Assembly: GCF_023238445.1 (NCBI RefSeq)
Contig: NZ_CP096658.1
Coordinates: forward strand, 2,852,001-2,916,000
Reading direction: 5' to 3'
DNA: 64,000 bases
Source of the DNA: Halorussus gelatinilyticus
GTDB lineage: Archaea > Halobacteriota > Halobacteria > Halobacteriales > Haladaptataceae
Shown here: in pieces, positions 32,981 to 36,091 of the stretch
Position numbering within the stretch: position 1 is the first letter of the stretch
Layout: each line of letters begins with the position of its first letter
The notes under the pieces: model-generated
Seen by the model: only the letters and a program-made list of their open reading frames with translations
Told to the model about the DNA's origin: nothing
Databases searched by the model: none
Made by a program: the position numbers and the translations under genes

Positions 32981-34195
32981 TCAGAGGTAGCCTTTCACGC
33001 TCGCGTGGACGCCCATCGACTCGAAGGTCTCTTCGAGCGCGTCCAGCACCACGGCGAGGTCCTGCTGGAGGTCGTACTCCCGGTACTTGCCGCCCGCCGA
33101 CCCCTCGTTGATTTCGGTGACGTTGAGGATGCCGAGCATGGCGAGGTCGTCCAGATGCTCGCGGAGCCAGCGCGCGGTCAGCGAGTCCTTGCCCGCGGCG
33201 TCGGCCAGCGACTTGTAGCGGGTGTAAATCTCGCGGGAGCGCGCCGGGGTGTCGTCCTCGGCTTCGAGCGTCGCCAGCGCGTAGACCACGAGGCGCTCGT
33301 GGTCGTTGAGGTCCGCGATGCCGCGGGCGACCTGCTCGCGTTCGAGGAGTTGGCGGCCGCGCCGGACGTGCTGTTCGGTGACTTCCTCGTCGTTCTGCTC
33401 GCGGGCGAGGTCGCCCGCCTTCAGGAGCAGGTCGAGGGCCTTGCGCGCGTCGCCGGACTCTTGGGCACCGAACGCGGCGCAGAGCGGCACCACGTCGTCG
33501 GTCAGCACGTCGTCCTTGAACGCGACGTTCTTGCGCTGTTCGAGGACCGCGCGGAGTTCGTTGGCGTCGTACGTCGAGAAGGAGATGGCGCGTTCGCACA
33601 GCGAGGAGCGGACTTTCGGCGAGAGCGAGTCCCGGAATGTGAGGTCGTTGCTGATGCCGATGAGACCGATGCGGGCCTCGGTCAGGTTCTCGTTCTCGCG
33701 GGCGCGAGAGAGTTGGTAGAGGATGGAGTCGTCCTTGAGGTGGTCGATCTCGTCCAGCACGATGAGGATGATGCCGCCCGCGTTGTCCAACTCTTCCCAC
33801 ATGATGTCGTAGACCTGCGACCGGGAGTAGCCCGTCTCGCTGATGTGGTTCGACGGCGGTCGCATCGTGTTGACGAGGTTGCTGGCGACGCGATAGGAGG
33901 AGTTGAGACCGTCGCAGTTGATGATTTCGGTGCGAACGTCCAAGTCCTCGTACTCCTCGGCGTTGTCCACCAGTTTGTTCAGGAGAAATCGGGTCGCGGC
34001 GGTCTTGCCCACGCCAGCCTTCCCGTAGAGAAAGATGTTGTCGGGTTGCTCGCCGTAGATCGCCGGTTGGAGCGCACCGTGGTACTCCTCCAGTTCGTCG
34101 TCGCGCCCGACCAGCGTGTCGGGCGTGTAGTCGTCCAACAGCGCCTCGCGGTTGGTGTACGGAGAGTACTCCCGGACGAAATCGAACGAACCCAT
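32981..34195 (-). CDS. orc1/cdc6: Orc1/Cdc6 replication initiator
   Basis: 404 aa. AAA+ domain with Walker A LYGKAGVGKTA (about 57-67), Walker B IILIVLDEIDHL, sensor-1 GLIGISNDLTFR and Arg finger region KVRSSLCERAISF, then a winged-helix domain from about 300 (ERLVVYALATLEAEDD, YKSLADAAGKDSLTARWLREHL). Binds origin repeats and loads MCM. ATG 34195 (MGSFDFVREYSPY) is chosen; the 16 residues before it are Ser-rich and not conserved. Faces away from the repeat-rich non-coding segment 34196-34672, as is usual for origin-linked copies. Confidence 0.9.
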   Translation of the reverse strand: MGSFDFVREYSPYTNREALLDDYTPDTLVGRDDELEEYHGALQPAIYGEQPDNIFLYGKAGVGKTAATRFLLNKLVDNAEEYEDLDVRTEIINCDGLNSSYRVASNLVNTMRPPSNHISETGYSRSQVYDIMWEELDNAGGIILIVLDEIDHLKDDSILYQLSRARENENLTEARIGLIGISNDLTFRDSLSPKVRSSLCERAISFSTYDANELRAVLEQRKNVAFKDDVLTDDVVPLCAAFGAQESGDARKALDLLLKAGDLAREQNDEEVTEQHVRRGRQLLEREQVARGIADLNDHERLVVYALATLEAEDDTPARSREIYTRYKSLADAAGKDSLTARWLREHLDDLAMLGILNVTEINEGSAGGKYREYDLQQDLAVVLDALEETFESMGVHASVKGYL

Positions 34196-34672
34196 GGTAC
34201 TCGTGCCGGAGTAGAGGGCCGGCCTTGAACTTGTCGAAACCACCCGTTCCGCTGATTCCGCTGATTCATCTGAGCGAGTTATTTAAGAAACACCCCCACC
34301 CCATCGTTCCGCTGAATCCCGTGCGAAGTGGGTGGGGTGGCCGTGGGGTGGCCTCTAGAGATGGCAAGGTTCTTGTCCTAGTCACGGAAACAGCATCCGC
34401 AAACTAGTTGAATTAGTCTATTTCGTCTACTCCGACTCGAAAAGAACGACTCGCCGCAAACTCCGCACTCGCCCGCCCTACTCTCCCGCGACAATTCAGA
34501 GGAACTCCGGGGTGGGGGGATTTATAAACCCTGCCGAACAGACGAAACAGCGGAAATGGTGGTTGAGAGTAACACGGTCCGTCGTGATGGGGCGTACTCC
34601 GGCGTCGCTCCACTTCGGAGGTGAGACAAGTGCGGAACTCCTCGACCGCTACCTGTCGCCTTACCCGATCGA
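34196..34672. other. candidate replication origin with ORB-like inverted repeats
   Basis: 477-bp gap upstream of orc1/cdc6. Two minus-strand copies of an ORB-like motif, CAGCGGAAC followed by a G-rich run, lie at 34239-34259 and 34291-34318; one plus-strand copy, CAGCGGAAATGGTGG, lies at 34544-34565. They therefore face each other across about 230 bp holding AT-rich stretches (GAGTTATTTAAGAAAC near 34275; AACTAGTTGAATTAGTC near 34401). Further G-runs: GTGGGTGGGGTGG near 34328 and GGGGTGGGGGG near 34509. The known archaeal ORB core (CAGTGGAAAC plus G-string) is similar. A TATA-like TTTATAAA lies at 34521-34528. Confidence 0.6.
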
Positions 34673-36091
34673 ATGCTTTTGCTTCCGGATTCGCTCTCGT
34701 TCTCCGTGGACGACGACGGAACACGAGAGCGAAACAGCGACGCTCAGCAAAACCGCGATGCTCGCCGGGACGATGCCATCCGCGGAGGTGGCATCCCCCA
34801 TCGAGACGACGTCACCCGTCGAGACGACACCCTCCGAGCGGTCCGCGGGGCGGTCTACCTCCCACAGAAGGACTGGAACGCCTACCAGATGTGGGCGAAC
34901 TACGAGAACGAGACCGTCGAACGAGAACTGGGCTACGCCGCCGAACTCCGCCTGAACAGCGTCCGCGTCTTCGCGTCCTACGAGTTCTGGCGCGAGGACG
35001 GCCCGACCTTCTTCGCGCACGTCGAACACTTCCTGACGACCTGCCGCGAGCGGGGCATCAGACCGGTCGTCGTCCTCTTCGAGGCCCCGCCGGAGTCACC
35101 GCCGACCGAGGAGAACCTCCACGCGACCGACCCCGAGAAGGCCTTCGGCGTCCACTCGCCCTCCCGGTCCGAAGTTCTCCAACCGCGCAACTGGAAGGGC
35201 TACGACCGCTCGCCCGTCCACTTCGCGCGGCGCTGGGCGCAGGAGTACGCCGGAGACGACCGACTGCTCGCCACCGAAATCATGAACGAACCCGGCGACG
35301 TGCAACCCCGCCGGGACTTCGTGACGGACGCGCTCGAAACCGTGCGAGACGCCGCGCCCGACGCCACGCTCACGATGGGCACCAAGGACGTGCGCTTCGC
35401 CCGCGTCTACGACCGCGACGACGCGCTCGACGCCTATCAGTTCCACATGAACCTCCCGAAGAACCGGGCGACTGCCCGCGAGTACGTCGGGAAACAGCGC
35501 GCGCTCGCCGACGAAATCGCCACCGAGGTCGCCGGAAGCGACGCGTCGAAACCGCTCTGGTGTACCGAGTGGCAGCGCACCCTCGACGAACCGCCCTCCA
35601 GATTCGCGCCGAACCTCGCCAGCCTCGCGCCCACCATCCGCGAGGTCCACGACGCCCAGACCCTCGACGGCGACTTCTTCTGGAGTCTGATGCTCCGCCC
35701 TGCGTACCTCCGGAAACCGCGCGAGAAGGGCCGGGTCAACGGTCTCTTCCACGACGACGGCGCGGTCTACTCCCTGCTCGACGCCGAAACCGTCGCCGGG
35801 CAGGGTCTGGACCTCCCGCGGCGCGACTCGTTCCCGACCGCGTGGCGCGCACACCGATTTCCGTATCCGCACGATGCGAGCGACGTCCACGCTCACGCTG
35901 ACGATTCCGCCCACCCTGACGACGCCGCCGACCGAGATTCGAAATCGGCGGGACTCGGAGCGAATGGAGGGTCCGACTCGAACGCCGACCGGTCGGCGTT
36001 CGAGTCGGACCTCCGGGACCTGCGAGACGCCCTGTCCGACCGCATCAGACGAGCGTTCGGTCTCGACTCCCGCGAGGACGACGACGAGTAG
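34673..36091 (+). CDS. glycoside hydrolase, GH5/clan GH-A-like
   Basis: 472 aa, no signal peptide, so intracellular unless the start lies elsewhere. TIM-barrel glycosidase marks: ATEIMNEPGD (acid/base Glu in NEP) and PLWCTEWQRTL (nucleophile Glu at strand 7), with LGYAAELRLNSVRVFASYEFW at the substrate end. The first 55 residues are charged and low-complexity, so the true start may be later. The C-terminal 90 residues (HADDSAHPDDAADRDSK...) are a His/Asp-rich disordered tail ending in DDDE. Substrate unknown; beta-glucan or mannan are usual for the clan. Confidence 0.7.
   Translation: MLLLPDSLSFSVDDDGTRERNSDAQQNRDARRDDAIRGGGIPHRDDVTRRDDTLRAVRGAVYLPQKDWNAYQMWANYENETVERELGYAAELRLNSVRVFASYEFWREDGPTFFAHVEHFLTTCRERGIRPVVVLFEAPPESPPTEENLHATDPEKAFGVHSPSRSEVLQPRNWKGYDRSPVHFARRWAQEYAGDDRLLATEIMNEPGDVQPRRDFVTDALETVRDAAPDATLTMGTKDVRFARVYDRDDALDAYQFHMNLPKNRATAREYVGKQRALADEIATEVAGSDASKPLWCTEWQRTLDEPPSRFAPNLASLAPTIREVHDAQTLDGDFFWSLMLRPAYLRKPREKGRVNGLFHDDGAVYSLLDAETVAGQGLDLPRRDSFPTAWRAHRFPYPHDASDVHAHADDSAHPDDAADRDSKSAGLGANGGSDSNADRSAFESDLRDLRDALSDRIRRAFGLDSREDDDE

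Follow-up and report, generated by a model that had tools for sequence, protein, structure and literature searches.

Several described replication origins of haloarchaea resemble the locus analysed here. In oriC1, inverted origin recognition boxes (ORBs) with a G-string lie beside orc1/cdc6 and enclose an inner G-rich inverted repeat, for which an enhancer role is known only from H. hispanica oriC1 (PMC3936714). The plasmid origin oriP–cdc6K of pHH400 (Haloarcula hispanica), for which autonomous replication has been proven (PMC3528665), combines a long ORB and G-string with a TTTTATAA run and tandem short boxes ending in GGGGTGG, all beside cdc6. The ORB of 'Origin II' at Hlac_3512 and HQ2959A (TAACAGCGGAAACAGTGGGGTGGGGGGGT; PMC3528665) consists of a CAGCGGAA core followed by a G-string. 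Clusters of CTAG upstream of orc1/cdc6 in Haloarchaea, along with an orphan methyltransferase, were reported by Blow et al. 2016 (PMC4752239); a role for CTAG in Haloferax volcanii was doubted by Ouellette et al. 2018 (PMC5867850).

The locus shares the oriC1 arrangement, including the spacing of a central element (CE) between the ORBs, and its inner G-rich inverted repeat resembles the one that acts as an enhancer in H. hispanica oriC1 (PMC3936714)—differences from oriC1 are the ORB core (TTCAGCGGAAC at the locus versus CCACCTGAAAC), a distinct initiator and extra tandem short boxes. All of the listed parts of pHH400 oriP–cdc6K recur at the locus, but the ORB core of oriP is TGCGGACA and no CE rises above background there. 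Origin II has the same core and type of G-string but occurs in other genera, with other initiators and a different sequence. Enrichment of CTAG is common to the locus and the reported clusters (PMC4752239); what is new relative to the earlier CTAG work is the placement between the ORBs, in register with the CE. The locus falls outside the oriC1 family, which is defined by the Orc1 common to all haloarchaea and CCACNNGAAAC-type ORBs. An H. hispanica-type oriC2 with an ORB-rich titration region downstream of cdc6 (oriC2D-like) was likewise rejected, as the genome contains no further long ORB at ≤2 mismatches.

The window (the whole stretch of 64,000 nucleotides that was analysed) comprises bases 2,852,001–2,916,000 of the closed 3,668,365-bp chromosome of Halorussus gelatinilyticus. 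The Orc1/Cdc6 encoded at the locus has the archaeal Cdc6 proteins 2qby_A and 2v1u as its nearest relatives of solved structure, and the named relatives of its gene with 91–97% identity are Halorussus species; initiators at least 86% identical to it were found only in Halorussus, Haladaptatus and Halomicrococcus. It scores 319.7 bits against NF001625, under the cut-off of 501, whereas the oriC1 Orc1 of the same chromosome passes at 660.5 bits, and the two proteins share ~43% identity over their best stretch. As in the origin criteria of Wu et al., the intergenic segment adjoins an orc1/cdc6 gene with AAA+ and winged-helix domains, carries at least two inverted ORB repeats with a G-string and contains an AT-rich region between the ORBs (34355–34450, including the conserved CE block), and its ORB sequence is tied to the initiator family (both present in 17 genomes, neither in 1).

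Features of the initiator gene and the adjoining 477-bp segment (positions in the window)
Feature	Position	Strand	Description
orc1/cdc6 initiator gene	32981–34195	minus	404 aa; AAA+ ATPase, Cdc6 lid, C-terminal winged helix (Pfam, NCBIfam)
Proximal tandem short box GAATCAGCGGAATCAGCGGAACGGGTGG	34240–34267	minus	two half-ORBs and short G-string; near-invariant in 17 Halorussus
Proximal TATA-like run TTCTTAAATA	34280–34289	minus	directly outside proximal long ORB; conserved
Proximal long ORB ATTCAGCGGAACGATGGGGTGGGGGTG	34291–34317	minus	G-string pointing outward
Inner G-rich repeat, proximal side	34326–34354	plus	G/C-rich blocks recur here in 17 orthologs
CTAG tetramers (three)	34355–34358, 34378–34381, 34404–34407		CE register +43, +20, −6
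Central element (CE) TGCGGATGCTGTT-N14-AAGAACCTT	34365–34401	minus	48 bp to proximal ORB, 93 bp to distal ORB
AT-rich flank beside CE	34410–34440		TAGTC..GACTA repeats; block conserved in 17 Halorussus
Inner G-rich half-repeat, distal side	34470–34490	minus	C-rich on plus strand
Distal long ORB ATTCAGAGGAACTCCGGGGTGGGGGG	34494–34519	plus	G-string bearing
Distal TATA-like run TTTATAAA	34521–34528	plus	mirrors proximal run
Distal tandem short box AACAGACGAAACAGCGGAAATGGTGGTT	34537–34564	plus	sequence conserved in orthologs

The segment is built of two mirror-image halves around ~34405, each consisting of a long ORB with its G-string, a TATA-like run and a tandem short box, and the inverted arms (34256–34317 versus 34494–34555) are 71% complementary. 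The inner G-rich pair forms a second inverted repeat inside the ORBs. The original prediction of a candidate origin had named three ORB-like boxes, two on the minus strand and one on the plus strand; these sites were confirmed (the proximal short box, the proximal long ORB and the distal short box), but the set was incomplete—there are four boxes, the long plus-strand ORB having been overlooked. Both AT-rich stretches that it placed near 34275 and 34401 are present, the latter being a conserved directional element (the CE) and not merely AT-rich. The long-ORB pattern (TTCAGMGGAACNNNGGGGTGGGG) has only these two matches at ≤2 mismatches in the 3.67-Mb genome, with one 3-mismatch match elsewhere and none for the reversed-pattern control; as the same pair is found across Halorussus, chance is excluded for the long ORBs.

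Of 18 Halorussus genomes, 17 contain an ortholog of the cdc6 gene at ≥91% identity, and in these 17 the long-ORB pattern lies beside it with one copy per strand, ~200 bp apart (a single copy in one incomplete genome). The sole exception (G004) lacks both this cdc6 and the long ORBs, which suggests that the whole origin was lost or replaced. Alignment of the 17 upstream regions revealed sharp conserved blocks (boxes, TATA-like runs and the central block) separated by diverged bases. The same layout occurs beside 86–88% orthologs on Haladaptatus and Halomicrococcus chromosomes, and, with another ORB, beside ~62% paralogs that are mostly plasmid-borne. Farther upstream of cdc6, the Haladaptatus orthologs (L018–L022) have extra ORB-like boxes and a duplication of the short-box block. 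A divergent cellulase-like (GH5) gene (34673–36091) adjoins the origin in some Halorussus species and is swapped for other genes in others; the origin stays.

GC skew changes sign at the centre of the locus. The left–right difference over 4 kb is 0.188, compared with a mean of 0.003 (s.d. 0.030, maximum 0.077) at 81 divergent gene pairs elsewhere in this genome, and the maximum of cumulative skew over ±48 kb falls 35–188 bp from the centre in four closed genomes and elsewhere in a fifth. The boxes kept beside orthologous orc1 genes across Halorussus and this inversion (<200 bp from the centre in those four genomes, and exceeding all 81 controls) both bear out the predicted origin. The switch is pronounced over no more than ~4 kb; at chromosome scale it is weak (on a 56% sampling of the chromosome). 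It had been proposed that this could be the chromosomal origin or the origin of an integrated replicon. As the chromosomal origin proper, the locus is ruled out by the universal oriC1, which maps to 1.297 Mb, where cumulative GC skew peaks genome-wide, and has a separate orc1 gene (1.298 Mb) and ORBs of the CCACCTGAAAC type. A chromosomal origin is nevertheless favoured over a recently integrated replicon, given the normal GC content of the locus, its presence in all but one of the 18 Halorussus genomes and also on the chromosomes of Haladaptatus and Halomicrococcus, and its stable distance from oriC1 in most closed genomes: by coordinates, this distance is 0.42–0.45 of the chromosome in five closed genomes, with H. 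aquaticus (~0.11) as an exception, so that the spacing is not strictly kept.

A genuine chromosomal origin best accounts for the local skew switch when the proven activity of origins with a similar build (PMC3528665) is also considered—segment 34240–34564 is very probably a bidirectional origin, second beside oriC1, which would be fired at present by the adjacent Orc1/Cdc6. In related species, some origins built this way are dormant (PMC3528665, PMC4595724), and a genuine origin that lies dormant in normal growth, or one left behind by an integrated plasmid and likewise unused, would fit the weak chromosome-scale skew and the plasmid-borne paralogs of the same layout, as well as the existence of dormant haloarchaeal origins (PMC4595724). 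We consider this unlikely in view of the retention of the ORBs and CE in 17 of 18 Halorussus genomes, the conserved local skew maximum and the normal GC content; in Haloferax, moreover, the dormant oriC4 is poorly conserved and the active origins are conserved (PMC4595724).

The CE pattern (TRCGGATANNGTT-N14-WTAAA) is directional, lies between the ORBs and is found again in oriC1 and in origins on plasmids, whose ORBs differ. In the genome of H. gelatinilyticus, the CE of the locus has one near match (2 mismatches), upstream of the oriC1 gene, where it again lies between the ORBs with a spacing of 94/43 bp (93/48 bp at the locus), despite the different ORBs and initiator. Using a spacer-free consensus learnt from window-type origins only, we detected the CE between the ORBs at ≤2 mismatches in 22 of 28 oriC1 regions outside Halorussus that have an inverted ORB pair (2.3 expected from mononucleotide shuffles), and at ≤1 mismatch in 10 (0.15 expected). 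In nearly all matching regions, the 3′ end of the CE lies 41–60 bp from one ORB. A 37-column profile with the same type of training but including the spacer reached p < 0.02 in 15 of 35 oriC1 regions, and our conclusions on the CE therefore rest on the spacer-free test and on pattern searches with a reversed control. With one mismatch allowed, these searches gave 38 places in 59 genomes (10 for the reversed control), and a Cdc6 gene was found within 1.5 kb at 25 of the 30 examined. The exact pattern occurs at 73 places in 60 of 213 haloarchaeal genomes (reversed control, 0), spanning several ORB and initiator families; all 30 places examined were origin-like, 27 with Cdc6 encoded no more than 1.5 kb away and the remaining three lying between inverted, G-string-bearing repeats. 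The two samples share genomes, these are related to one another, and the oriC1 sequences had already been seen when the pattern was refined, a bias against which the reversed control and the window-only consensus serve as guards. The CE is not universal, with no exact match in most of the 213 genomes, no clear copy at the Natronorubrum oriC1 regions (or, as noted, pHH400 oriP) and none above background at the other five cdc6 loci of the same genome.

Plain AT-richness is an unlikely account of the CE, given its fixed spacing and polarity, and so is a cdc6 promoter, given its survival away from cdc6. Indeed, the CE and ORBs persist with no cdc6 within 1.5 kb at four loci (L220, L284, L285 and L287), and at three others (L177, L181 and L182) the CE is reversed relative to cdc6, its short side still facing the nearer ORB. 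These observations bear on whether the boxes and CE are a mere regulatory region of cdc6 (promoter and operators) and no origin. The proximal ORB, the TTAAA run and the short box lie ~45–130 bp upstream of the cdc6 start codon, and autoregulation of cdc6 is plausible; yet the distal half mirrors the proximal one, with TTTATAAA kept even where the neighbouring gene differs, the CE can run opposite to cdc6 or stand without it, and a promoter would not be expected to produce a switch in skew, all of which makes a purely regulatory region very improbable. L220 (G050:C1:1885859) is a complete oriC1-type origin with inverted ORBs, CE and many CTAGs, its orc1 gene lying 160 kb away.

CTAG occurs at about one-tenth of the frequency expected from base composition (666 in 2.05 Mb). 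Only eight occur in the whole 64-kb window, three of them within or at the edges of the CE; two or three of these are retained in most Halorussus orthologs. Across 32 oriC1 regions, CTAG density was 9.7 per kb between the ORBs versus 0.51 per kb in the flanks, with concentrations at −6 and at +42 to +44 from the CE start.

On balance, with odds slightly better than even, we regard the CE as a third conserved cis element of haloarchaeal origins beside ORBs and G-strings, common to several ORB and initiator families, that would mark the site of duplex opening or of docking by MCM or another common factor, with CTAG methylation possibly serving to mark timing. Such a shared element would sit ~45 bp inside one ORB and usually 85–140 bp from the other, with CTAG ~6 bp before and 42–44 bp after its start. 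The ORB layout and CE spacing common to several origin families could also reflect ancestral sequence from one common origin ancestor, with no function of its own in the CE; this is quite unlikely, because sequence without a function should have been lost sooner than the ORBs, and it is the letters and exact spacing of the CE that survive while the adjoining ORBs and the N14 spacer bases have diverged. None of the papers covered mentions the CE, which is thus provisionally unreported; they call the inter-ORB region AT-rich or an unwinding element.

By analogy with established archaeal work, Orc1/Cdc6 most likely binds the outward-facing pair of long ORBs as well as the tandem short boxes, which would bend and under-wind the DNA, and MCM would be loaded onto the ~178-bp interval between the ORBs. 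The CE, off-centre and polar, is probably the duplex-opening site or a docking site for MCM or another factor, and together with the AT-rich flank it forms a candidate unwinding region. The proximal TATA-like run is possibly a cdc6 promoter element and/or a melting aid, judging from its sequence; the proximal boxes overlap the presumed promoter, and Orc1/Cdc6 may control its own gene. A conserved CTAG methyltransferase may mark newly replicated origins through the CTAGs in the CE. The genome encodes one PF01555 methyltransferase (2,158,081–2,158,815), which we infer to methylate CTAG.

The locus would offer a clean second chromosomal origin in Halorussus, with ORB and initiator paired one-to-one, and the CE an asymmetric landmark inside haloarchaeal origins that is independent of ORB type. 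Searching with the CE pattern also uncovers origins that no longer have a cdc6 gene beside them (for example, L220 and L285). If the CE is functional, the opening site of an archaeal origin becomes directly testable in Haloferax or Haloarcula, as do the reading of the origin centre by a factor besides Orc1/Cdc6 and the role of the widely conserved orphan CTAG methyltransferase.

Three of the other five cdc6 loci of the chromosome have other inverted repeats, possibly ORBs. The cdc6 gene at 2339955–2341145 (G000:C1; L006:3097–3615) is accompanied by several copies of a perfect inverted repeat (GAACACTTCGATAGAGGTGTGT), has no CE and lies at a local maximum of cumulative GC skew, making it a candidate third origin with a different ORB. 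Beside the cdc6 paralog at 255602–256696 (G000:C1; L003:3093–3344) are three ORB-like inverted repeats (GTTACAAACGCGACCATGGTGTGTCC), possibly a weak or dormant origin. An island of ~130 kb (G000:C1:3008007–3138055) with low GC content (0.55–0.57) and unusually strong skew is probably an integrated element.
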